From IMG/VR virus record IMGVR_UViG_3300021364_001752, positions 1-64,000 of that record: 64,000 nt of DNA. The stretch is one strand, 5' to 3'. Positions 31,778-60,952 of the stretch are shown here, piece by piece (positions within the stretch are counted from its first letter, which is position 1; every line of letters begins with the position of its first letter). Made by a program: the position numbers and the translations under genes. Source of the stretch: a virus. Below the pieces are notes generated by a model. It did no database searches. It was given only the letters and a program-made list of their open reading frames with translations, and was not told where the DNA came from.

Positions 31778-31783
31778 TAAATA
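31778..31783 (+). promoter_or_regulatory. Late promoter core
   Basis: CGTAAATAAT, 18 bases before the SleB-type gene. The ribosome site is GAGGT. An out-of-frame ATG at 31788 has the four-base spacing but opens only a short frame. Confidence 0.55.
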
Positions 31784-31800
31784 ATATATGAGGTATAATA

Positions 31801-32292
31801 ATGAAAACTCTAATCTTAGTGTTGGCAGGTGTTTTGATGGCTAGCCAAGTTGTAGCAGAAAGTTTGTTTGACAAAGATGCACATCCAGATGCCTTTTGTC
31901 TTGCACAAAATATATACTACGAAGCACGTGGTAGTAATCTAGCTGACCGAGCAGCAGTTGCAGATGTAGTTATTAACCGTGTAGAAGATACACGTTATCC
32001 TAATACAGTGTGCGAAGTAGTAAAACAAGGACGTAAAGATTCAAACGGAAATATGATTAGAAACCAATGCCAATTCAGTTGGTATTGTGATGGAAAAAGT
32101 GATAACCCTCAGGATGCCGATCTATGGGCGGATGCACAAATGTTGGCATGGAATGTGTTTTATTTCGATAAGTATAATGGACTGACCGAAGGTGCAACAC
32201 ACTATCATGCAACTTATGTTTCGCCGAGTTGGGCAAAAGAATTACAATTGGTAGGAAGAATCGGAGGACATATCTTCTACCGTTGGGAATAG
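31801..32292 (+). CDS. Cell-wall hydrolase, SleB/CwlJ family, exported
   Basis: A 163-aa enzyme with a signal peptide (residues 1-19, ending QVVAES) and the Hydrolase_2/SleB domain: DAFCLAQNIYYEARGSNLADRAAVADVVINRVED (with the catalytic Glu in YYEARG) and QCQFSWYCDGKSDNP. The family cleaves peptidoglycan glycan strands. Export by the host Sec system plus a late promoter fits an endolysin that gathers in the periplasm, so lysis would need only membrane depolarisation by a holin or pinholin. No separate spanin pair is evident next to it. Confidence 0.88.
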   Translation: MKTLILVLAGVLMASQVVAESLFDKDAHPDAFCLAQNIYYEARGSNLADRAAVADVVINRVEDTRYPNTVCEVVKQGRKDSNGNMIRNQCQFSWYCDGKSDNPQDADLWADAQMLAWNVFYFDKYNGLTEGATHYHATYVSPSWAKELQLVGRIGGHIFYRWE

Positions 32293-41719: not shown

Positions 41720-41743
41720 TAAATATACATGGAGGGCCATGTA
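41720..41743 (+). promoter_or_regulatory. Late promoter within an RBS-hiding hairpin, upstream of csgF
   Basis: TAAATA (41720-41725) is followed by TACATGG (41726-41732), loop AGGG, and CCATGTA (41737-41743), whose last base is the A of the start codon. The Shine-Dalgarno GGAGGG is therefore in the stem-loop. Late transcripts should start near 41730 and cut off most of the left arm, freeing the site. Confidence 0.65.
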
Positions 41744-42225
41744 TGAAAAGAATAGCGAACATCGCCATGTTGCTGCCTATGTTTGTGTCACTGTCAGTGT
41801 CACATGCAGGAGCAGATCTAGTTCATCAGTTTAAAAATCCCAGTTTTAGTGGTATTGGGTATAGCACCCATGTTTTGAGTTTAGAACAATTACAATTTAA
41901 CAGAACAGAGGACATTGCAAAGGCAGCTGAAGCAGAAGAGCGTAGGCTAGAGCGCGAGCTAGAAAATTCAACATTAAACAAATTTATTAAAAATGTAGAG
42001 TCTCGCATATATGCAACATTGAGCAAGCAAATGGTAGACGCTATGTTTGAATCATGCACTGATGACACTGGGCTTACCTGTCCTACAAGCGGAACTACTG
42101 AAATTGAGGATAGCACCATTACTTGGAGCAAAGATACAACCACAGGAGAAATTACAATTGTTGTTGATGGTCCTGACGGTTATACTGAAATCAGCATACC
42201 GGGATCAGGGGAGTTTGCCTTTTGA
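41743..42225 (+). CDS. csgF: CsgF-like curli assembly protein
   Basis: A 160-aa exported protein with a signal peptide (residues 1-23, ending SVSHAG). The mature N-terminus ADLVHQFKNPSFSGIGYSTHVL matches the CsgF start (TFQFRNPNFGG) that plugs into the CsgG pore and forms its second constriction. A helical middle (about 55-105) and a beta-rich end (ITWSKDTTTGEITIVVDG) also fit CsgF, which links the pore to the fibre nucleator outside the cell. Two Cys (SCTDDTGLTC) may form a disulfide. It overlaps csgG by four bases, as an operon partner. Confidence 0.88.
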   Translation: MKRIANIAMLLPMFVSLSVSHAGADLVHQFKNPSFSGIGYSTHVLSLEQLQFNRTEDIAKAAEAEERRLERELENSTLNKFIKNVESRIYATLSKQMVDAMFESCTDDTGLTCPTSGTTEIEDSTITWSKDTTTGEITIVVDGPDGYTEISIPGSGEFAF

Positions 42226-43001
42226 AGTATTTAATGATACTTGGAATTTTATTTTTAACAGGTTGCACGGTGCCACAAAGCGTTCAAGAAGCAATGGATA
42301 GCGAACCTGAAGTCCAAGTAAATCCTATGCAAGCTGAGTTGAGAGCACTACCTGGACCAGATGGCGATCCAGTGCCAATAGGTGTTTACAGTTTTTCAGA
42401 CAAAACTGGACAGCGTAAGCCTGCTGACAGTGTAGCAAATCTAAGTTCAGCTGTTACACAAGGCGCAGAAGTATGGCTTATTGATGCACTACTGGAGGCA
42501 GGCGAAGGCGAATGGTTTAATGTTGTCGAGCGTGTTAGTTTAGACAACATTATAAGAGAAAGACAACTTATACGAAGCACAAGGGAAAATTATGATGATC
42601 CAAGTCCTTTAGAGCCAATGCTCTTCGCAGGAGTGGTTTTAGAAGGCGGAATTATAGGATATGACAGCAACCAGACCACAGGAGGGTATGGTGCAAGATA
42701 TTTTGGAATAGGCGCTGCTACTGAATACAGAGTAGATACTGTGACAGTTGGCATGCGTTTAGTGAGCGTTGGCACTGGAAGAGTGTTAATGAGCGTGGCA
42801 GCAGAGAAGACTATAGCTAGCCATAGGAGTGGGGCAGATGTTTTTAAGTTCTTAGACATGAGCACCAAGGCACTGGAAATAGAGAGCGGATACAGTGTCA
42901 ATGAGCCTACCAATTATGCTGTGAGGGCAGCAATAGAGGCAGGAGTAATAGAACTAATTTATGAAGGAAATCGAAAAGGTTTTTGGACATTTAAACAATG
43001 A
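42222..43001 (+). CDS. csgG: CsgG-like outer-membrane curli secretion pore
   Basis: A 259-aa lipoprotein: signal MKYLMILGILFLTGC with lipid Cys15. It aligns with E. coli CsgG along its length: VGSIIGYESN is VLEGGIIGYDSN here, GARYFGIGA is identical, and YSVNEPTNYAVRAAIEAGVIELI matches the C-terminus. CsgG forms a nonameric outer-membrane barrel that secretes curli subunits. In the constriction loop (KPADSVANLSSAV) the Asn is kept, but the position of Phe56 is Leu and Tyr51 has no clear match, so the channel may be wider or choose other cargo. It lies between csgF and two curlin-repeat genes. Confidence 0.93.
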   Translation: MKYLMILGILFLTGCTVPQSVQEAMDSEPEVQVNPMQAELRALPGPDGDPVPIGVYSFSDKTGQRKPADSVANLSSAVTQGAEVWLIDALLEAGEGEWFNVVERVSLDNIIRERQLIRSTRENYDDPSPLEPMLFAGVVLEGGIIGYDSNQTTGGYGARYFGIGAATEYRVDTVTVGMRLVSVGTGRVLMSVAAEKTIASHRSGADVFKFLDMSTKALEIESGYSVNEPTNYAVRAAIEAGVIELIYEGNRKGFWTFKQ

Positions 43002-43013
43002 GGGCAACGATAA

Positions 43014-43721
43014 ATGAAAAAAATAATATATGCCGCCTTATTTGGTCTTATTAGTTCGGTTGCATTAGCAAATGAAATTTATATCAGTCAAATAGGTGAC
43101 ACATTAGACTTAGACATTACCCAAAGCGGTGATAACAACAAAATAGGAACCAGTTTAGCCGATATGGTTATTCAAGGTGACGACATGACATTCAGTATTA
43201 CACAAACTGGAGATAGCAATACGATTGATGCAACTATAAAAGGAGCCAATTATACAGGCACATGGGATTTTACAGGAAGCAATAACGATGTTGATCTTTT
43301 ATGTAGTTCAACTACCGCAGGCAATTGTGATACTGTAACCCTTAACATAGATACCACTGGCGGATACAACAATTTCACATTTGCTATTGGCGAAACCGCT
43401 TCGGCTGACAGCAGTATTATTAACTTTACTGTGACAGGGGATAGTCAAGTATTTGATGTTACTGTAGATGGCGAAGCAATTGATGTAACAGTTGTAATTG
43501 ATGATGGCACAAGCGGTCTTACAAACACAGCGGGCAACACTAACAATTTAACAATTGATACAAGTGGCAATGGCGGAACCAACGGTAACACAGTTGACTT
43601 GAACATTACAGGTTCGGGTGGGACATACAACGTTACACAAACAGGAACGCTAATTGATCAGACCATTGATGCAACATTCAGTGGCGATGACGCAACAGTT
43701 GATATCACACAGAGCGACTGA
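43014..43721 (+). CDS. Curlin-repeat protein 1 (CsgA/CsgB-like)
   Basis: A 235-aa exported protein with a signal peptide (residues 1-20, ending VALANE). The mature part carries curlin-type repeats with Q-x-G-D-x-N spacing: ISQIGDTLDLDITQSGDNNK, FSITQTGDSNTIDATI, NVTQTGTLIDQTI, ending VDITQSD. Each predicts a strand-turn-strand unit of an amyloid beta-solenoid. It is longer than CsgA, with a Thr/Asp/Gly-rich middle. As the first gene after csgG it is the obvious cargo. Whether it forms amyloid cannot be told from sequence alone. Confidence 0.82.
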   Translation: MKKIIYAALFGLISSVALANEIYISQIGDTLDLDITQSGDNNKIGTSLADMVIQGDDMTFSITQTGDSNTIDATIKGANYTGTWDFTGSNNDVDLLCSSTTAGNCDTVTLNIDTTGGYNNFTFAIGETASADSSIINFTVTGDSQVFDVTVDGEAIDVTVVIDDGTSGLTNTAGNTNNLTIDTSGNGGTNGNTVDLNITGSGGTYNVTQTGTLIDQTIDATFSGDDATVDITQSD

Positions 43722-44812
43722 TGTGGAGATTGTTATTTGTGCTGCTGTTTTTTGCCAGCAGTGCTATAGCTCAAATAGGCGAAATCGCTGACATAGAAGG
43801 CAGCGGCATTGTTAAGCGTGACAGTGAAAAGATAAAAGGTGAACTGGGCATTGGTGTTCAAATGGCCGACAAAATTATTACGGCCAAAGGACGTATGCAA
43901 TTACACTTCTCTGACGAAACTCGTGTAGACGTAACTGAGCATAGTGCAATGGTGATCGATGAGTTTATATATGATCCTGCACAAGGCACAGGTGCATTAA
44001 AAATGCGAGCTACATTGGGTGCAGTAAGATATGCCAGCGGACAGATAGCCAAAACCAGCAGACAAAGAGTTAGTATCAGAACACCTAGTGCAACTATCGG
44101 TGTTCGCGGCACAGACTTTATAATGATTGTTGATGAAATAGGCGGCAGCATGGTTACCCTCTTACCTAGCTGTGATGACAGAGGCTTTTGTATGGTTGGT
44201 GAAATTACTGTAGAGAGCGATGCAGGTATTGTAATAATGAATCAAGCCTATCAAACAACAATAGTTAAACACAGTGCTGCTCCTCCTGCGCCACCTAAGA
44301 TATTAGACTTACCAGACGATCTTTTACGTGCAATGTTGATAGTAAGAAAGACTTCTCCTTACGATGAAATTAATGAAGAGGCTGTAGCTGCAACAGATAT
44401 TTTAAAATTTGATTTTCTAGCATTTGATGGTTTAGATGAGGATTTACTTAATGCAGATGAGCTATGGGTAACTGATTTAGACAATGAATCTTATTTAAAC
44501 CAAATGTTTGTAGATCAGTTAACCCAGGCACTGAAAGAATTGTTCGCATTACTTACAAGTCTATTGGATTTACAAGCAGAAGAATTTATGCGTATACAAG
44601 TATTTGGATACGATCCCGAAACTGGTATAACCTTAGAAGACCAGCCACCAAATTATGTATTCACACGAACAGAAAATACACACCATGTGAGATTAACATT
44701 GAATGAAAATTATGGTTATAATATTGATTTAATTCAAAACGATTTTTCAATATTTGATTACAGTATAGGAGTAGGAGCAAATGACATTTACATCAATCAG
44801 CAAGAAAATTAA
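43721..44812 (+). CDS. FecR-domain protein in the curli-type operon
   Basis: A 363-aa exported protein with a signal peptide (residues 1-17, ending SSAIA). A FecR domain spans about residues 45-160: DKIITAKGRMQLHFSDETRVDV, then VSIRTPSATIGVRGTDFIMIVDE, the hallmark TP-T/S-A-x-x-G-V-R-G-T. In bacteria such domains sit in the periplasm or at the surface as sensors or peptidoglycan/sugar-binding scaffolds. The remaining 200 residues are acidic and helical, then beta. It lies between the two curlin genes, overlapping the second by 32 bases, so a role as fibre anchor or assembly factor is likely. Confidence 0.8.
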   Translation: MWRLLFVLLFFASSAIAQIGEIADIEGSGIVKRDSEKIKGELGIGVQMADKIITAKGRMQLHFSDETRVDVTEHSAMVIDEFIYDPAQGTGALKMRATLGAVRYASGQIAKTSRQRVSIRTPSATIGVRGTDFIMIVDEIGGSMVTLLPSCDDRGFCMVGEITVESDAGIVIMNQAYQTTIVKHSAAPPAPPKILDLPDDLLRAMLIVRKTSPYDEINEEAVAATDILKFDFLAFDGLDEDLLNADELWVTDLDNESYLNQMFVDQLTQALKELFALLTSLLDLQAEEFMRIQVFGYDPETGITLEDQPPNYVFTRTENTHHVRLTLNENYGYNIDLIQNDFSIFDYSIGVGANDIYINQQEN

Positions 44813-45473
44813 ATTGCTGGTATTATTTGCAGCATTTCCTGCCCATGCTAACGAAATTTATATTACGCAAACCGGTGATAGCCTTGCCTTGCGTGTTGAG
44901 CAGCGAAGTGCAGACAATTATGTCAATCTAAGCAGCACTGGTAATACAAACGACATAAGCATTACACAAGGCATGCATTACGATGGCTCTACATATTGGG
45001 TAGACACAGACGAGACTGGTGGACACGAAGCATACTGGACCATTACTGGTGCAAACAATACCGTGTGGAGTAGTCAAACAGATGTCAACAGAGGTGGTGG
45101 TGGAGGATCTCCGCACCATTTGGCAAACATAGTAAATGGAGATTACAATACAATTGCACATACACAAATGGGAAAAGCAGGACACGATGGCTTTGTAGAA
45201 ATACAAGGTGACAACAATGATGTTACACTTTATCAGAGAGGTAATGGTGGTGCAAAGTGGGCAGATGTTGTGCTCAACGGTGATGGACATAGTGTAGACG
45301 TTAACCAAAGAGGAAGCCAAAGTGCTAATGCTACTGTAGATTTAACCAATAGTGGCGGTGCATATGATTTTATACTCACACAGAATGTTACTACTAGTGC
45401 TGATACATATAGTATAACTGGCATTTGCACAAACAGTGCAGGTTGCGCATTGTCTGTTGATCGCAACAACTAA
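44781..45473 (+). CDS. Curlin-repeat protein 2
   Basis: A 230-aa exported protein with a signal peptide (residues 1-23, ending FPAHAN). The mature start EIYITQTGDSLALRVEQRS parallels curlin protein 1 (EIYISQIGDTLDLDITQS), so the two arose by duplication or form a major/minor pair like CsgA/CsgB. Repeats continue (DISITQGMHYDG, VEIQGDNNDVTLYQRGNGG, VDVNQRGSQSANATV, FILTQNV). It is richer in aromatic and His residues than protein 1. The AGGAG site lies in the end of the FecR gene. Confidence 0.82.
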   Translation: MTFTSISKKIKLLVLFAAFPAHANEIYITQTGDSLALRVEQRSADNYVNLSSTGNTNDISITQGMHYDGSTYWVDTDETGGHEAYWTITGANNTVWSSQTDVNRGGGGGSPHHLANIVNGDYNTIAHTQMGKAGHDGFVEIQGDNNDVTLYQRGNGGAKWADVVLNGDGHSVDVNQRGSQSANATVDLTNSGGAYDFILTQNVTTSADTYSITGICTNSAGCALSVDRNN

Positions 45474-45476
45474 ATA
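45471..45476 (+). promoter_or_regulatory. Late promoter core
   Basis: AACTAAATATATG overlapping the stop of curlin protein 2; a GAGGGCATACA ribosome site follows before the 45493 ATG. Confidence 0.6.
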
Positions 45477-45492
45477 TATGTGAGGGCATACA

Positions 45493-45633
45493 ATGGGCGA
45501 AAGTATCATAGCATTCTTTGTAGCAGGATTTTTCACCGCATTTGGCTGGTGGGCTGCCGGCAAGGTTACCACACAGATTGACTCTCACATAGAGGAGCAG
45601 CACAATGGATCTAATTTGGGCACTGGCGATTAG
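45493..45633 (+). CDS. Small membrane peptide, 46 aa
   Basis: ATG 45493 with GAGGG seven bases upstream, to TAG 45633. One membrane segment (IIAFFVAGFFTAFGWWAAGKV) and an acidic tail. It overlaps the next gene by 29 bases and carries that gene's ribosome site (GAGGAG). Its build resembles a pinholin or small holin, as well as small accessory peptides. Confidence 0.62.
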   Translation: MGESIIAFFVAGFFTAFGWWAAGKVTTQIDSHIEEQHNGSNLGTGD

Positions 45634-45952
45634 CACACATCTAGGAATGGAAGGCGATTACAACAGCATTCATCCACACGTAAGGATAGAAGATGGAGGA
45701 GCAATAGCAGGAGCCTATTACAACAGCATGGACCGCATAAGTTTATATGCGGGGCACAGATTAGAATCGGGTAACGCAGGCTTAGAGTTTGCGTTGGTCA
45801 CAGGATACGATGAATGGATGCCCGTAGCACCATACATTAGAGGCACATATGACTTAGGCAATGTTAGAGCGTTTGCATCACCAACAGGGGAAGTATGGAA
45901 CGGCGAAACCAATATAGGCGTGGTTTTTGGAATTGAATACACGTTTAAATAG
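45605..45952 (+). CDS. Small beta-barrel-like protein, 115 aa
   Basis: Alternating strands with aromatic ends (AIAGAYYNSMDRISLYAGHRL, AGLEFALVTGYDEW, TNIGVVFGIEYTFK) and a C-terminal strand ending T-F-K, like a very small outer-membrane barrel or half-barrel. A weak N-terminal hydrophobic start (LIWALAISTHLG) is not a full signal peptide. Similar proteins occur in marine T4-like phages. Function unknown. Confidence 0.62.
   Translation: MDLIWALAISTHLGMEGDYNSIHPHVRIEDGGAIAGAYYNSMDRISLYAGHRLESGNAGLEFALVTGYDEWMPVAPYIRGTYDLGNVRAFASPTGEVWNGETNIGVVFGIEYTFK
45946..45951 (+). promoter_or_regulatory. Late promoter core
   Basis: TTTAAATAGT at the end of the 45605 gene, followed by a leader of about 60 bases containing GC-rich repeats and the AAGGAG site of the 46019 gene. 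Confidence 0.55.
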
Positions 45953-46018
45953 TATGTGGACCGCGGCGTGAGGGCGCAACCGGCATAACAAGAAGTCTTC
46001 AATCAAGGAGAACATTAA

Positions 46019-47518
46019 ATGAGGGCAATCAAAAATACGTTAGGCGGAGCCATTGTCGCCTCTTTATTATCAACAACAGCAATGGCACACACAAATTCAG
46101 TTGGTTATGTTGGTGACGGTAACGGAAACATTACTGTATGGTATGGTTCATGGCACGACGGCACAACATTTAACGAAGCAGAACTAAAAGTATTAGATTC
46201 TAATGATGCTAAAATTACACAAACACAGTTTAACTTACTGTCGCAGGATTCACCAGCAGGACTTATCTCAGGTGTAAACTACTTTGGTAGTGATGGTATA
46301 CAGTTGATTGATTATGATGTAAACACGGGTGGTGGCGAGTCATACACTTGGCAAGGTGCAACATTTACACTGGCACCAGGTGACTACACATTTGTATACA
46401 TTCCATTACAGGATGCAGAAAGCACACTATGTCCGGCTGGCACATCAGGATGCGGTCCAACACAAGACTGGGTTCCAATGGACGAAATTATTCGCAGTTT
46501 AAGTATTACACTTACACAAAATGATATCGATGGTGATGCTAACGCAAACGGAATCCTTGATACAACTGAAGTTGCTGTAGGTGATGCGGCGGCCGCGGCA
46601 AGTGGTCCAACAGTAGTAAGCCAGGGTTCAAGCACAGTAATTGGATATGTTGCGGCAAGCGGCGGCGTTATACAGATTGTTCAAAGAACAAGCACAACAA
46701 CTATGTGGAATAATATGAGTGACGGATCTATAGATGGACTACACACAATGGCTCCTGTTACACTCGATCCGTTCGAAGGACGCATTGATCAGGTGGATCA
46801 AATGTTAAATTTAAATTTACATAGAAGCACACCTATTGCAGATGGTATTCAAAGCGGACGTATCAGTCACGAAATGGGCGACGGATATGACGCAGATACA
46901 AGAACCTATAGTTTAGGACACACTGTATTCACAGAAGAAGGTATGAGTATACAAGGTGGAATAACAAAAGGATCAACTACCTTTACAGGAAGCGATAGCA
47001 CAGGATCAATGGAATCTATGATGTTGCAAGGAAGAGTAGGTAAAGCCTTAGATGATAGAGATATTACAATAGGCGTAGGTGCGCATGTGCATAACAGCGA
47101 TATTGAATATTCTAGAACAATAGGAGATTTCAGTGCTGCTGGTTCAACCAGTGCAAGTGACATCGGAGCTAACATTACTTTTGAAAAATCAACTGGTAAC
47201 GTTCGTCCTTTTGTAGGATATACAATTGGAAAGCAGTCAACAGATGCTTATGATGAGACAGGAGATGCACAAGTAGCTCTATCACGTGATGCAGCAGAAG
47301 AGACTTACAACTTTGCAACAATTGGTATCAACATTGATGCAGGAATGTTTACAGCAAATTTTGCTAGAGATTTCGACGATGTAGGAACTACCAGAATAGG
47401 GCTGGGCATTGATAAGCACATAAATGATAGAATATCTATAGGTGCAAGTGCTAATCGTTCTATGAGTGGTGACAACACAAGCACATACCTAAGTGCAGGA
47501 TTTAAAATTAAATTTTAA
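46019..47518 (+). CDS. Outer-membrane protein with autotransporter-like barrel
   Basis: A 499-aa exported protein with a signal peptide (residues 1-23, ending TTAMAH). The N-terminal 190 residues are a beta-sandwich-like domain (SVGYVGDGNGNITVWYGSWHDG). The middle holds an Ala-rich stretch, and the last 250 residues are barrel-like strands (SIQGGITKGSTTFTG, ARDFDDVGTTRIGLGIDKHI), ending SAGFKIKF with C-terminal Phe. An acidic DIDGDANANGILDTTE segment (about 174-189) looks like a calcium-binding dockerin/EF-type loop. It may work with the curli genes upstream as surface anchor, or replace a host porin. Confidence 0.75.
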   Translation: MRAIKNTLGGAIVASLLSTTAMAHTNSVGYVGDGNGNITVWYGSWHDGTTFNEAELKVLDSNDAKITQTQFNLLSQDSPAGLISGVNYFGSDGIQLIDYDVNTGGGESYTWQGATFTLAPGDYTFVYIPLQDAESTLCPAGTSGCGPTQDWVPMDEIIRSLSITLTQNDIDGDANANGILDTTEVAVGDAAAAASGPTVVSQGSSTVIGYVAASGGVIQIVQRTSTTTMWNNMSDGSIDGLHTMAPVTLDPFEGRIDQVDQMLNLNLHRSTPIADGIQSGRISHEMGDGYDADTRTYSLGHTVFTEEGMSIQGGITKGSTTFTGSDSTGSMESMMLQGRVGKALDDRDITIGVGAHVHNSDIEYSRTIGDFSAAGSTSASDIGANITFEKSTGNVRPFVGYTIGKQSTDAYDETGDAQVALSRDAAEETYNFATIGINIDAGMFTANFARDFDDVGTTRIGLGIDKHINDRISIGASANRSMSGDNTSTYLSAGFKIKF

Positions 47519-47529
47519 GTGATAGTTTT

Positions 47530-47564
47530 ATTGCCCTCATTGGATAAATACCTTTGAGGGCAAT
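47530..47564 (+). promoter_or_regulatory. Late promoter within an RBS-hiding hairpin
   Basis: A perfect 10-bp inverted repeat, ATTGCCCTCA (47530-47539) and TGAGGGCAAT (47555-47564), encloses the late core TAAATA (47545-47550). The right arm holds the ribosome site GAGGGC directly before ATG 47565. Read-through RNA would sequester the site; late RNA, starting near 47556, would not. This matches the design known for T4 genes such as e and soc. Confidence 0.75.
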
Positions 47565-47960
47565 ATGAGAATAATAATTTTATTATGTATACTGGCGGGA
47601 CCAGTATGGGCTGACTCCAATCACGATAGCAAACTCTGCTTGGAGCGGTATGGGTATTCTGTAGAAAATTTTGATAGGTTTGACTGGAACAAAGCAGCAG
47701 CATGTGCAAGTAAACTAAGACAAAAACAAAATGCAGAAGAATTAGCAGAACTAAGAGACTTTCTCAAACATAATCCAAGATACAGAGTGCCAGGACAGAG
47801 TTTAAATCGTTGCTGGGGCAAGCCACGTGAAATGCCGTTTGAAAGTGTAACAGCAAGTGCCAGTGCAGATGGCAGTTGGCATGTGGGTGTAAATTATAAA
47901 GATAAACTGCCAGCAGGATGCTATGAAAATGCTCCGTGGGATAATAGGGACTCAAAATAA
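47565..47960 (+). CDS. Exported Cys-containing protein, 131 aa
   Basis: A signal peptide (residues 1-16, ending GPVWAD) and a mature domain with four Cys (SKLCLERY, AAACASKL, LNRCWGK, AGCYEN) likely forming disulfides in the periplasm. Not recognised. It is controlled by a hairpin/late-promoter switch, which argues that early expression is harmful, as for lysis or envelope proteins. Confidence 0.65.
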   Translation: MRIIILLCILAGPVWADSNHDSKLCLERYGYSVENFDRFDWNKAAACASKLRQKQNAEELAELRDFLKHNPRYRVPGQSLNRCWGKPREMPFESVTASASADGSWHVGVNYKDKLPAGCYENAPWDNRDSK

Positions 47961-48118
47961 TGTGGAAAACATCATTAGCAATACTTTTAATCATACTAGG
48001 CGTAACTTGGTGGAGGTATGGAGAGCAAAGTCAAACATATTGGCAGAACGTAGGACCTTCTTGGGACAAGATGTTAAACCCGAATAAATACACGGAGCAA
48101 CACAATGAAGGACAATAA
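47960..48118 (+). CDS. Small membrane peptide, 52 aa
   Basis: ATG 47960 overlaps the previous stop (TAATG). One membrane segment (SLAILLIILGVTWWRYG) and a polar tail. It might be an Rz/spanin-like or pinholin-type peptide, but no clear feature proves it. Another late promoter lies inside its end (48085-48090). Confidence 0.6.
   Translation: MWKTSLAILLIILGVTWWRYGEQSQTYWQNVGPSWDKMLNPNKYTEQHNEGQ
48085..48090 (+). promoter_or_regulatory. Late promoter core
   Basis: GAATAAATACACGGAG inside the end of the 52-aa gene, upstream of the adenylate cyclase gene. Confidence 0.55.
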
Positions 48119-48120
48119 TA

Positions 48121-50169
48121 ATGACCAAAAAAATTCTTCTGTCACCACTGTGGAGCGTTCTGCTTTTAGGCCTCTTAGCCTACGTGATATCGCTGTCGCC
48201 CAGCTTCCTGCAGAGCATCCAACTAAGATACTTCGACCAACTTATAATCAATCAACCAAAAGTTGAAAACAATATCTACACTGTAGACATTGACGAAGAT
48301 ACAATCAACGCATATGGACAATGGCCATTTCCAAGGGGCGATTATGCAATGCTTATTGATGATCTTTATGCTAGGGGTGCAGGTTTGGTTGTGTTCAATG
48401 TTTTAATGAGTGAGCCTGATAGGTCTGGTCAGGACGATATACTTGCAGATACAATGGAACAGTTTCCTGTTATTTTAACCATGCTAGGAGCAGCAGAAGG
48501 TAAAAATGAACCTATCAATCCAGGTGCAACCATTGTTAACAGTGACTTCTTACACACAATTCCCAGTGTTCCAGGCATAATTGCCAATGTGCCTGAAATT
48601 GAAAATGTAGCAGTTGGAAGTGGAATAATCAACTCATGGGCAGAAATAGACGGCGTTACTAGACGCATACCACTGGTTGTTATGGCTGATGGCACATTGT
48701 ATCCTAATGTAACAATGGAAGTGTTACGTGTGTTAGCAGGTGATCCCTCGTTCCAAATCAAACTAAATGCACTAGGTGTAGACAAACTACGCATACCACA
48801 GTTTGGCTTTTTACAAACAAATCCAGATGGTGAAGTATGGATTGACTGGAGTCAAGGATATAAACGTTATAGTGCAGTAGACTTGCCAGACGACTTTGCG
48901 GGTGGTATTGTATTTGTAGGTCCAACAGCAGCTGGTGTAACACAACCTATAGCTACTGCAATGGGCAGTGTATTTCCGCATCAAATACAAGCAGCATTGC
49001 TTGGCACAGTTTTTAACGAATCAAACATAAGCAGACATCCTGACGCAGAAGCATGGGGCGAATTAGCCGCCTTTGTTGTTGCAGGCTTGCTGTTAATCGC
49101 ACTCGCCCGATGGACATATGTTGGCATAGCCTTTTACATTATGTCAGTAGGCGGCTTTATTGGAGTTAGTATATATGTATTTAATACGCAAAACATTCTT
49201 ATTGATGGCGCTACTATCAGTGCTTTCCTCTTGCTCGTGGGCCTTCAACGATACGTGCTCAAGTTCATCGACGAGTTCTTGCAAAAGCAAGCCATTAAAA
49301 AACAATTCGAAGGATACGCCAGCCCAGCAGTTGTTAAATTACTACAACAATCTCCAGAGCTTGTTAAGCAGGGTATAAAGAAAGATGTAAGCATCGTGTT
49401 CTCAGACTTACGTGGCTTTACACCATTAGGTGAAAGTTTTGGTGATGATGTGCAAGGACTTACAAGAATAATGAATGGCTATATGGATGCCATTACACAA
49501 CCTGTGCTAGACGCAGACGGGATGATTATAAAATATATTGGTGATGCAAGTATGCATATACACAACGCACCTATAGACGATGCTAACCACGCTAGAACAG
49601 CAGTGCAGTGTGGCTTAGACATGTTAAGAGCAGTGGAGAAATTCAATGACGAAGTTATTATTCCAGAAGGTCGCCCTCCTGTTGGGATGGGTGCTGGGAT
49701 TAATACTGGCCTTGGCTACATTGGCGAAATGGGCAGTAGTAAGCGGCATAGTTACGATGTGCTTGGAGACGCCGTCTCAACGGCTGCTAGGGTTGAATCT
49801 AAATGTAAAGAATACGGTTGTTTGTTATTGGTGGGAGAAGCCACCTATGAAGCAACTAAGGATGATTTCTTCTATTTAAAAATTGACGACTTGCAAGTTA
49901 AAGGCAAAAGTGTAGGATTAGGCATTTATACAGTTTTAGACGACACAAAGGCACACTTTACAGTTAGCAAAAAGTATCACGATCAAATGCACAAACAATA
50001 TAGAGATCAAGACTTTGACGGTGCTATAGAAACAATAAAGAAAATATACAGTGGATTTGATGGCAGGATGCAAGGGTATTATGATATGTGGATAGAACGT
50101 TGTGAGTATATGAAGAAGCAAGAATTGCCTTCAAATTGGAATGGCACATTTATAGCAACGTCTAAATAG
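48121..50169 (+). CDS. CHASE2-domain class III adenylate cyclase
   Basis: A 682-aa membrane enzyme. An N-terminal membrane helix (about 8-28) leads to a CHASE2 sensor domain outside the inner membrane (about 30-300; VDIDEDTINAYGQWPFPRG is typical). Three membrane helices follow (about 305-385), then a cytoplasmic cyclase domain (about 420-600): metal Asp in FSDLRGFT, K-Y-I-G-D for adenine recognition, and YDVLGDAVSTAARVE for the transition state (Ser where Asn is usual). The K/D pair predicts ATP as substrate, giving cAMP. The late promoter and the neighbouring envelope genes suggest signalling tied to the envelope state. A phage-borne receptor cyclase is very unusual. Confidence 0.9.
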   Translation: MTKKILLSPLWSVLLLGLLAYVISLSPSFLQSIQLRYFDQLIINQPKVENNIYTVDIDEDTINAYGQWPFPRGDYAMLIDDLYARGAGLVVFNVLMSEPDRSGQDDILADTMEQFPVILTMLGAAEGKNEPINPGATIVNSDFLHTIPSVPGIIANVPEIENVAVGSGIINSWAEIDGVTRRIPLVVMADGTLYPNVTMEVLRVLAGDPSFQIKLNALGVDKLRIPQFGFLQTNPDGEVWIDWSQGYKRYSAVDLPDDFAGGIVFVGPTAAGVTQPIATAMGSVFPHQIQAALLGTVFNESNISRHPDAEAWGELAAFVVAGLLLIALARWTYVGIAFYIMSVGGFIGVSIYVFNTQNILIDGATISAFLLLVGLQRYVLKFIDEFLQKQAIKKQFEGYASPAVVKLLQQSPELVKQGIKKDVSIVFSDLRGFTPLGESFGDDVQGLTRIMNGYMDAITQPVLDADGMIIKYIGDASMHIHNAPIDDANHARTAVQCGLDMLRAVEKFNDEVIIPEGRPPVGMGAGINTGLGYIGEMGSSKRHSYDVLGDAVSTAARVESKCKEYGCLLLVGEATYEATKDDFFYLKIDDLQVKGKSVGLGIYTVLDDTKAHFTVSKKYHDQMHKQYRDQDFDGAIETIKKIYSGFDGRMQGYYDMWIERCEYMKKQELPSNWNGTFIATSK

Positions 50170-50176: not shown

Positions 50177-50818
50177 CTGAACTACATAAGAAATTTATTC
50201 GGTAATCATACCGAAGAAAAACGCACTACAGATGATATAAATGTTATATGGCTACATGGCGCAAATCAGTCAAGTCTAAGTTTCAAATATCTACAAACCA
50301 AAACACAATTTTCAAATGAAATATTGCCTAACTATAGCAGTATGAATCGCTTCTATGATAATCTTGAAATGATTGCAGATTCATGCCAAGGCAAAGGTCC
50401 TCATTTTGTTATAGGTCATTCTATGGGCGGTCTATATGCACTGCATTTAACTAGATATGTTAGGGTAATTGGAGGAGTAAGCATAGGAACTCCCTTTGCA
50501 GGCAGTAGCACAGCAGATTGGGCAAAATATATAGTGCCAAACTATCAATTGTTTAGAGACATAGGACGTAAAAGCGACCCTGTAAAAGAATCACAACAAA
50601 TAGAATTAGAAATACCTTGGACTCAGATAGTAAGCACTCACGGAAGCGTTCCTTATCACGGTGGACCAAATGATGGTGTAGTGACAATTGCTAGCATGAA
50701 GTATAGAAAAGATATGAAAATTATTGAAGTTCCACATACACACCATGAAGTTATGGTTAGTGATAAAGTAGGCGAAATAATTTTAGATTCTTACAACGCT
50801 ATTGTAAATCCTTCTTGA
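50174..50818 (+). CDS. Alpha/beta hydrolase (lipase/esterase-like)
   Basis: A 214-aa protein with the nucleophile elbow GHSMGGLY (Ser about residue 77) preceded by a strand (GPHFVIGHS). A possible Asp lies in HGGPNDGVV and a His in PHTHHEVM, so the triad seems complete. No signal peptide. Distinct in family from the class 3 lipase at 1788. Likely an esterase acting on lipids or acylated sugars late in infection. It ends in 20 bases of overlap with the convergent minus-strand gene. Confidence 0.75.
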   Translation: MLNYIRNLFGNHTEEKRTTDDINVIWLHGANQSSLSFKYLQTKTQFSNEILPNYSSMNRFYDNLEMIADSCQGKGPHFVIGHSMGGLYALHLTRYVRVIGGVSIGTPFAGSSTADWAKYIVPNYQLFRDIGRKSDPVKESQQIELEIPWTQIVSTHGSVPYHGGPNDGVVTIASMKYRKDMKIIEVPHTHHEVMVSDKVGEIILDSYNAIVNPS

Positions 50819-51197
50819 TTTCTTTTAGATCGTCTTTGCTAAAACTTTCTTTATTTAAATCTGGCTTAGGCTTTGGTGCTTCCTCTATGCCTGTGCTGTT
50901 GAAAACTTCGCTAGTGCTTTGGTAACGAGCAACAATATCATTTAGTTCGTCCTGTCTTTCTTTGTCTAACATGGCACGATGTTCTAGAACCATACTTAGT
51001 TTACTATTAAGTCTAATCATATCATTGTCAAGCATACGAATACGATCAACAAGTTTTATTAATGTTCCCATTGTTTCACCTAGCACAGGATCAATGGTTT
51101 CAGTTACCCATTTCCATATAAAGAATATAAAATACCCCATACCCATTGCGGCAATAATAGGAAATCCGTATTCTGCTACTGCTGCTCCGATATCCAT
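50799..51197 (-). CDS. Single-span coiled-coil membrane protein (holin-like), second of pair
   Basis: A 132-aa protein with an N-terminal membrane segment (about 10-33, YGFPIIAAMGMGYFIFFIWKW) and a long helical cytoplasmic part (LIKLVDRIRMLDNDMIRLNSKLSMVL). It shares the layout x-x-GFPI/A-A...-D-N-x-x-x-x-M-x-N-D with the gene just before it on the minus strand, so they are paralogues. Such pairs in marine phages are often called holin-like, but evidence is structural only. Start follows the first gene's stop with no gap. Confidence 0.62.
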   Translation of the reverse strand: MDIGAAVAEYGFPIIAAMGMGYFIFFIWKWVTETIDPVLGETMGTLIKLVDRIRMLDNDMIRLNSKLSMVLEHRAMLDKERQDELNDIVARYQSTSEVFNSTGIEEAPKPKPDLNKESFSKDDLKEIKKDLQ

Positions 51198-51476
51198 TTA
51201 GTCTCTCCTAGCATCATTTTTGCCTTCGTTGGCTGCAATACGGTCTATATTTGGTTTTACATTGAGTGCGTAACTAAGTAGTGCATCTATCTTAACAAGG
51301 TCATTGTTCATCGTTTGAACACGGTTGTCCAATTGACCAATGATGTTCTTAAGAGTCGTTACACTACCTGTTACACCAGCTAATATGAATTTTAGTGTGA
51401 GAAATACAAAGCCACCTGCGGCTAATGCTCCAGCTATTGGAAACCCTACATCGCCCACTAAACTTAAAAAATCCAT
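51198..51476 (-). CDS. Single-span coiled-coil membrane protein (holin-like), first of pair
   Basis: A 92-aa protein with a membrane segment (about 11-35, GFPIAGALAAGGFVFLTLKFILAG) and a helical tail (IGQLDNRVQTMNNDLVKIDALL). It has an AGGAGGG ribosome site and a minus-strand late promoter. A paralogue of the gene following it. Late time, membrane location and pairing suit a holin/antiholin pair partnering the exported SleB hydrolase at 31801; this is inference. Confidence 0.62.
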   Translation of the reverse strand: MDFLSLVGDVGFPIAGALAAGGFVFLTLKFILAGVTGSVTTLKNIIGQLDNRVQTMNNDLVKIDALLSYALNVKPNIDRIAANEGKNDARRD

Positions 51477-59850: not shown

Positions 59851-60438
59851 ATGGCAACTGTATTAACCGAGAACTGTCAAAAAGGTGATAACCTTATTTT
59901 TGACCAAATTATCAATTATGCTTACCAAGGCATTACAAAAGACACTTATAATGTTTTGAGACGTATGGTAGACGACGGTGTTTTGCAAATAGAAACACTG
60001 GTAGAACAAGCAATCAGCAAGGCAGGCCAATTAGAACGTGAAAGTATTGAAGGCCGTGACTTTGTAGACGGCTCAGATGCCAAAAAGGCTATCACAACCG
60101 AATGTGTAGAACCTAGTAAAAACACTTATAGACGTGTTGCACATATCAGTAATATCAAAGGCAAACAAGGTATTTTGCGTATTGTTGTCAGCGAAACTGT
60201 AAACAATAAGCTTCATTATTTTGCTATTCCAAAATATGCATACGAAGGACTACAAAGTATCCGTATCTATTTTAATTGGGATGGAACCCCTAAGCTAGGT
60301 GGTAAATGGTTTGTTTACCGCTGCAAATCTTTTGAACAGATGGCAAATATAAAAGATGAAGATATCAATCAATTAATGGTTGACAATAACCCTATGTTGC
60401 GCTATATTATAAATACAGGCACAAACTTGGAAGGCTAA
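59851..60438 (+). CDS. Hypothetical protein, 195 aa
   Basis: A soluble alpha/beta protein. The N-terminal half is helical (FDQIINYAYQGITKDTYNVL), the second half strand-rich (TYRRVAHISNIKGKQGILRIVVSETVNN, and SIRIYFNWDGTPKLGGKWFVYRC). No motif recognised. First gene of a new early-type unit. Confidence 0.66.
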   Translation: MATVLTENCQKGDNLIFDQIINYAYQGITKDTYNVLRRMVDDGVLQIETLVEQAISKAGQLERESIEGRDFVDGSDAKKAITTECVEPSKNTYRRVAHISNIKGKQGILRIVVSETVNNKLHYFAIPKYAYEGLQSIRIYFNWDGTPKLGGKWFVYRCKSFEQMANIKDEDINQLMVDNNPMLRYIINTGTNLEG

Positions 60439-60442
60439 AACT

Positions 60443-60952
60443 ATGAAAAACATTATTGCAGGTGCAATCATCTCATCATCTGTCTTTGCAACCACTGCAA
60501 TGGCAGAAACCGTTACGGCTACTGTAACATACGTAGAACCTCGTTATGAAACTATCTATCAAAATGTTCCATCAACGCACTGTCAAAATGTGCAAGTTCC
60601 GATTTATGGAACTGTGCAAGGCGGCGGAGCAACCGGTGGCGATGTATTAGGTGGAATGATTATCGGCGGTTTGCTTGGTAAAGGTGTAACTGGCAAAGAC
60701 AACGGTGCAGCAGCTGGTGCTGTTATTGGCGGTATCATTGCTGCTGATCAAGGTAACCGTAGTCAGCAAGTTATTACAGGCTACAGAAATGAACGTCAGT
60801 GCAGCGAAGTTATTAATCGTGAACAAGTGCGTCAGCTAAAAAACTATTACATTGAGTTTGATTGGAACGGTGTTGAAGGAAGTGCATACACTTACAATAA
60901 TTACCGTATCGGCGATCAACTTTATGCAACAGTTTCTATTGTGGCACAATGA
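60443..60952 (+). CDS. Glycine-zipper outer-membrane protein (17-kDa-antigen-like)
   Basis: A 169-aa exported protein with a signal peptide (residues 1-21, ending TAMAE), no lipobox, and a Gly-zipper hairpin (GGDVLGGMIIGGLLGKGVTG, then GAAAGAVIGGIIAADQG). The motif VTYVEPRYETIYQN parallels the 23070 lipoprotein, so they are distant paralogues. Such proteins stabilise or span the outer membrane. Overlaps the next gene by ATGA. Confidence 0.75.
   Translation: MKNIIAGAIISSSVFATTAMAETVTATVTYVEPRYETIYQNVPSTHCQNVQVPIYGTVQGGGATGGDVLGGMIIGGLLGKGVTGKDNGAAAGAVIGGIIAADQGNRSQQVITGYRNERQCSEVINREQVRQLKNYYIEFDWNGVEGSAYTYNNYRIGDQLYATVSIVAQ

Follow-up and report, generated by a model that had tools for sequence, protein, structure and literature searches.

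Why should the candidate promoter of a small gene lie between the two arms of a perfect hairpin, and why should the right arm of that hairpin be the gene's own ribosome site? This is the question raised by a short element in the window, i.e. the 64,000 nucleotides analysed here, which are part of a virus record of 80,455 bases (Table 1). On direct reading and by script, ATTGCCCTCA and TGAGGGCAAT pair perfectly over 10 bp and an eleventh pair (T47529-A47565) takes in the first base of the ATG start codon, so that the perfect 10-bp inverted repeat which the initial annotation had seen around TAAATA is confirmed and even extends to 11 bp. Its view that the right arm provides the ribosome site of the gene at 47565 is borne out by GAGGG (47556-47560), which lies within 47555-47564 and hence inside the right arm of the 47530-47564 hairpin.

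Table 1. Coordinates of the hairpin element, the gene it precedes and the second candidate switch of the window.
Feature	Position	Strand	Details	Basis
Left arm of hairpin	47529-47539	+	TATTGCCCTCA; 10-bp repeat part ATTGCCCTCA at 47530-47539	read directly and by script
Interval between arms	47540-47554	+	15 nt, TTGGATAAATACCTT	
TAAATA promoter box (candidate) between arms	47545-47550	+	longer string GATAAATA from 47543	
Right arm of hairpin	47555-47565	+	TGAGGGCAATA; 10-bp repeat part TGAGGGCAAT at 47555-47564	
Controlled gene (putative)	47565-47960	+	131 aa; hydrophobic N-terminus	N-terminus by eye
Upstream co-directional ORF, 499 aa	46019-47518	+	ends 46 nt before the ATG; possible source of read-through	
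csgF-like gene	41743-42225	+		Pfam CsgF
csgF TAAATA box, second candidate switch	41720-41725	+	compact form	
csgF compact hairpin	41725-41744	+	ATACATGG-AGGG-CCATGTAT; left arm from box end, right arm into ATG	

RNA spanning 47510-47590 folds at -21.8 kcal/mol compared with -10.5 ± 2.6 kcal/mol for shuffles (z -4.41; 0 of 200 as good), and the predicted structure of the long transcript holds both the ribosome site and the start-codon base in a helix; RNA from 47553 on, from which the left arm is absent, gives a fold z of -0.44. Opening the ribosome site of the 131-aa gene, computed with 60 nt upstream and 25 nt of the ORF, costs 16.4 kcal/mol in read-through RNA versus 1.4-1.7 kcal/mol for all starts 3-10 nt past the box, and 17.8 versus 3.4 kcal/mol with 70 nt upstream and 35 nt of the ORF. 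With the box between the arms, RNA that begins from it is predicted to lack the left arm, and this holds for any start 3-10 nt past the box. The same computation on T4 controls (long/short RNA) returns 15.6/1.9 kcal/mol for e, 15.7/3.1 for 49 and 13.3/0.4 for I-TevII; soc, at 9.9/6.3 kcal/mol, is energetically weak.

Our best reading of this evidence, all of it computational, and one we consider probably correct, is that the element works as a switch on the origin of the transcript. RNA entering from the 499-aa ORF would form the 11-bp hairpin (47529-47565), which in the computed fold buries the ribosome site together with the first base of the start codon, and the 131-aa protein would go untranslated from such upstream RNA. 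RNA of the gene's own should begin near 47555-47557 if the box lies about one helical turn before the start, as T4 late promoters do (PMC2988020); it would have lost the left arm and carry a leader of about 8-10 nt with the ribosome site free. Since the promoter would lie between the arms and the site would be hidden in upstream RNA, the 131-aa protein would be made only when its own promoter fires.

As for the protein itself, its description as exported and Cys-rich holds: besides the hydrophobic N-terminus, four cysteines are invariant in 25 aligned homologues, and together these features suggest an exported, disulfide-bonded protein. It has no match in Pfam, PHROG or NCBIfam, a PDB profile search gave just two matches (E about 0.8), neither convincing, and AlphaFold2 modelled it poorly (mean pLDDT 72.9, pTM 0.38). 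Among bacterial species genomes six pattern matches turned up, none of which was confirmed, and named phage records yielded a single weak partial match, in Roseobacter phage CRP-207. The gene belongs to a run on the plus strand (41743-50169) that opens with csgF, csgG, a curlin-repeat gene, a FecR-domain gene and a second curlin-repeat gene and goes on with three more ORFs, the 131-aa ORF, a 52-aa ORF and a CHASE2/guanylate-cyclase gene. Of the 'curli/lysis block' in which the gene had been placed, the curli half therefore stands and the lysis half is not supported, the endolysin-like gene being found at 31801-32292; that gene has a box at 31778 without such a hairpin. A pair of small ORFs at 50799-51476 belongs to phrog_18771, whose function is unknown.

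That TAAATA is a promoter box is suggested by where it is found. When all hexamers in the interval -34 to -17 are ranked for ATGs that have a ribosome site and open an ORF of at least 60 aa, it comes top in the window (9 seen, out of its 62 occurrences, against 0.9 expected); it is also first in three of six further stretches tested (L140, L196, L164), second in L138 and outside the top eight in L210 (2 of 13) and L172 (2 of 21). The bare strings show no enrichment in the window, be it GATAAATA (4 found, 3.8 expected) or TATAAATA (4 found, 5.6 expected), so what speaks for a promoter is the location ahead of genes and not the string. Further TAAATA boxes precede upstream genes at 41720, 45471 and 45946, and these are nearer than, or comparable to, the nearest upstream sigma-70-like promoters on the plus strand, at 44693 (11/12, within an ORF) and 34530 (12/12); the RNA to be silenced may thus be late as well as early. 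This bears on two earlier claims. The one that early read-through RNA would be silent is backed, as regards silence, by the cost of opening the hidden ribosome site, and loses its 'early' to the upstream TAAATA boxes; the other, that late RNA without the left arm is translated, agrees with the predicted freeing of the ribosome site, its 'late' being a putative class suggested by the position of TAAATA. We infer that the element would serve to shield an exported protein from whatever is transcribed upstream, whether early or late, and not specifically as an early/late timer. TAAATA and sigma-70 classes interleave on one strand, and it is under such conditions that transcripts running on into TAAATA genes would be of consequence.

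Does the arrangement persist in relatives? The 131-aa protein was met at 53 IMG/VR loci in a first scan and at 62 in a second, the two scans overlapping. TAAATA occurs no more than 80 nt from the start in 12 of 46 non-redundant homologue loci, and the other 34, having no such box in that range, cannot use the switch. Setting aside L021 and L107 (box apparently in the preceding ORF) and L117 (box at -51) leaves nine rows, or eight lineages once L009 and L011 are merged. Five of these eight own-box lineages, i.e. the window (W), L002, L004, L013 and L030, have a clear hairpin around the box whose right arm contains the ribosome site, one has a weak hairpin and two have none. In the five, opening costs 11.5-17.8 versus 0.3-3.4 kcal/mol, and both arm sequences and upstream neighbours differ; the arrangement thus recurs in related phages with other arm sequences. 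The weak case, L009/L011, has comparable energies (12.4-12.9 versus 0.5 kcal/mol), yet its structure is weak and its left arm distant. L027 lacks an enclosing hairpin (6.6 versus 6.9 kcal/mol), but a terminator is called there past the end of the upstream ORF and ahead of the box. L029 shows by eye a stable GC-rich stem followed by T's before the box, where the scan called a terminator solely on the opposite strand, and past the box it has another stem, at the ribosome site. Insulation by other means is thus possible in both. In L030 a divergent gene, equipped with a box and a ribosome site of its own, shares the palindrome, and the neighbour in L009/L011 is divergent as well; because mirrored start regions alone could yield an inverted repeat there, W, L002, L004 and L013 are the clean cases. 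Such a palindrome, common to divergent genes with TAAATA and a GAGGGC-type ribosome site on each strand, is seen at L030 (1917-1956) and near 14235-14290 of L164, and could gate two genes at once.

These relatives also speak to the idea that the hairpin is the upstream gene's terminator, or a stabiliser of its mRNA 3' end, which overlaps the ribosome site incidentally. The hairpin does begin 11 nt past the upstream stop codon, the L002 element is called terminator-like, and in L291 and L326, which are other phages met in a scan of the collection, a T run follows the box hairpin, so terminator, promoter and ribosome site may be fusable into one element. In the window, however, a terminator scan of 47420-47600 called none, the bases directly 3' of the stem being ATATGAGAATAATAATTTT, and in relatives the element keeps its place before the downstream gene even where the upstream neighbour is a different one, its right arm always over the ribosome site. 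So to our minds, a role in ending or protecting the upstream mRNA is unlikely.

A perfect 10-bp inverted repeat alone is not rare in the window, which has 11 registers of them at 7 sites compared with a mean of 3.3 registers (maximum 7) in 30 shuffles; the unlikely part is that such a repeat should both enclose TAAATA and include the ribosome site in its right half. Could even this have arisen by chance in an AT-rich genome with stretches complementary to ribosome sites? We surveyed 160 loci including the window (2.04 Mb), fetched via the 131-aa gene, the cyclase gene or one structural gene and hence with the 131-aa gene over-represented, and compared 156 non-redundant starts carrying TAAATA 17-32 nt before the ATG with 539 starts carrying any of 13 permuted hexamers. 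Stems around the hexamer that overlap the ribosome site reach a score of at least 10 at 15 of the 156 TAAATA starts and, as weaker versions, at 8 of the 539 control starts (p 9e-6); without the 131-aa gene family 11 of 149 remain (p 5e-4). At the strength of the 47530-47564 element (score of at least 14) the counts are 5/156 and 0/539 (p 5e-4). Not all of the 15 hairpins are convincing, several having 7-bp stems or long loops. Genes marked in this way include csgF (L210, L152), lipoprotein-like genes (L162; L164 by energy), a small membrane-type gene (L164) and genes for 240-aa and 523-aa proteins (L164). An energy-based survey, drawn from loci fetched in the same way, agrees (25/171 TAAATA starts versus 16/312 controls, p 5e-4), but as its rows are distinct by exact sequence only, we prefer the non-redundant count. 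With these frequencies, and with the same gene carrying a clear hairpin in five of eight lineages, a chance origin appears quite improbable. Swapping left flanks among 13 switch loci, which had been selected for having hairpins, weakens the pairing from -17.1 kcal/mol with own flanks to -10.2 kcal/mol (0 of 20000 permutations), and for the six lineages of the 131-aa gene only the effect is weak (-15.6 versus -11.3 kcal/mol; 851 of 20000). Highly improbable, finally, is that the palindrome acts as DNA, as the operator for a regulator of the TAAATA promoter: its centre does lie near the box, and the palindromes of L030 and L164 have a box on both strands, but the arms vary by lineage, in step with the ribosome site of the respective gene and not as copies of one shared binding site would, and the interval between them varies too.

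A scan of the whole collection for GCCCTC, TAAATA and GAGGGC in this order is given little weight, since one exclusion was made after seeing the result and some of the hairpins look like terminators. An ATG plus ORF follows in 26 of 87 distinct TAAATA cases among the matches listed, compared with 11 of 65 for TATAAA (p 0.085); once five control rows that also hold TATAAATA are removed, TATAAA drops to 6 of 60 (p 0.004, with the TAAATA figure again among the matches listed). The same scan brought up a family of ~161-171 aa (MARPNPIR.. type; L236, L254, L261, L291, L326, L328) with TAAATA in a strong hairpin that ends in GAGGGC, and it is in L291 and L326 of this family that the T run mentioned above occurs. 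An isolate look-up for two genes from the scan gave no match for one and a weak match for the other.

Returning to the switch on transcript origin, csgF may offer a second, compact version of it, in which the ribosome site lies in loop and stem. Its fold has a z of -3.45 (0 of 200 shuffles as good), and opening costs 10.7 kcal/mol in read-through RNA versus 3.5 kcal/mol for starts 5-9 nt past the box; whether the late csgF RNA would lose its left arm depends on its exact, as yet predicted, start. Compact stems, which by definition start at the box, close in the vicinity of the ATG, leave the ribosome site in their loop and score at least 8, are found at 10 of 156 TAAATA starts versus 3 of 539 controls (p 4e-5, a value weakened by the form having been noticed in the same data before testing), and shuffling the six spacer bases gives a mean of 1.7 and never 10 in 200 trials. 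The form also has a precedent in T4 gene 49, which is comparable in computed fold and likewise has its box directly before the left arm. Compact or enclosing hairpins are seen, too, at the csgF-like genes of L017, L152 and L210. On a broader and more tentative view, which we find possible but doubtful, a group of uncultured curli phages would generally gate the synthesis of exported envelope proteins (CsgF, the Cys protein, a lipoprotein, small membrane proteins) by promoters set in hairpins; in the compact form the left arm would occupy the nucleotides that separate box and start site, and the T4-like TAAATA would be read by a factor outside the known gp55 families.

Which factor would read the box is indeed less T4-like than the box. 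Neither gp55 (phrog_234, phrog_12791) nor gp45 (phrog_223) was found in the 80-kb record (G000) or in G001-G009, G011, G013 and G014, records that are perhaps partial, though G001 measures 134 kb; gp55 was found in G010, G012 and G015, and gp45 in G010. A search with a 4-row gp55 alignment, run without a positive control, found nothing in G000 or G001-G008 (again, perhaps partial records), and Pfam Sigma70_r2 and Sigma70_r4 searches found nothing convincing in G000 or its near relatives. A Sigma70_r4 match in G014 was set aside as a late sigma, the protein being LuxR-like by eye. There is thus an exposed gap, in that a T4-like TAAATA box leads before genes while no T4-like late sigma was detected in G000 and its near relatives, whose records may be partial. 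For the earlier assignment to the T4 e/soc type this means that geometry and energies fit, T4 e, 49 and I-TevII being alike, and that T4-type late transcription, which uses gp55 and gp45, finds no counterpart among the genes detected in the window's record.

The principle itself is well known. In PMC3014915, T4 e, soc, 49 and I-TevI are described as hiding their ribosome sites, with ~100-fold less lysozyme made from the long RNA of gene e, and PMC2988022 describes similar leaders for I-TevII, I-TevIII, segB and Aeromonas phage Aeh1 mobE. Gene e comes closest to the 131-aa gene: both have the box 19 nt before the ATG within a hairpin that hides the ribosome site, and their energies are similar (15.6/1.9 versus 16.4/1.4-1.7 kcal/mol). 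They differ in that gene e serves lysis and its repression has been measured (PMC3014915), whereas the window gene encodes a putatively exported Cys protein whose repression is predicted. The leaders of T4 soc, 49, I-TevI and I-TevII and of Aeh1 mobE follow the same principle on other genes and in another phage group. Nearer in gene content are two marine myophages, Pelagibacter phage HTVC008M and Methylophilales phage Melnitz, which have csgF, csgG, curlin-type and additional genes followed by a CHASE2-type cyclase as in the window; tblastn found no homologue of the 131-aa gene in either. The parts consulted of the Melnitz paper predict promoters and mention no such hairpin (PMC9004378); according to the pelagimyophage paper, late promoters could not be predicted (PMC7029224), and both papers treat what phage-borne curli genes do as an open question. 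The literature searched, which includes the accessible parts of these two papers and few subscription papers, describes no such switch in curli-bearing marine phages. Our data may add an uncultured curli-phage group to the phages that use the known e/soc/I-TevI leader switch, and with it new target genes, above all those for exported proteins of the curli block, namely the Cys protein and CsgF. Looking for the hairpin-box layout would also be a simple means of spotting genes whose expression from read-through RNA a phage has to prevent, and genes barred in this manner point to proteins that are costly or harmful at the wrong time.

Other promoter-like elements of the window may be added. A search for TTGACA and TATAAT separated by 16-18 nt, with at most one mismatch, found sigma-70-type promoters to be strongly strand-biased (18 on the plus and 1 on the minus strand, with 3.9 expected on both together), five of them being perfect (1099, 11737, 31326, 34530, 58006). 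The first of these (1099-1143; TTGACA, 17 nt, TATAAT) has its -10 element in the loop of a palindrome running from TTGAC to GTCAA and lies upstream of a peroxiredoxin-like gene at 1173, an arrangement suggestive of an operator or of early transcription under autoregulation. At 60380-60415, ahead of the gene at 60443, a sigma-70-like promoter (11/12) and a TATAAATA box overlap each other and look like a single promoter for two periods. Ahead of the cyclase gene, a TAAATA (48085-48090) is part of the codons for NPNKY in the 52-aa gene, and a box at the matching place is found in at least six other loci.
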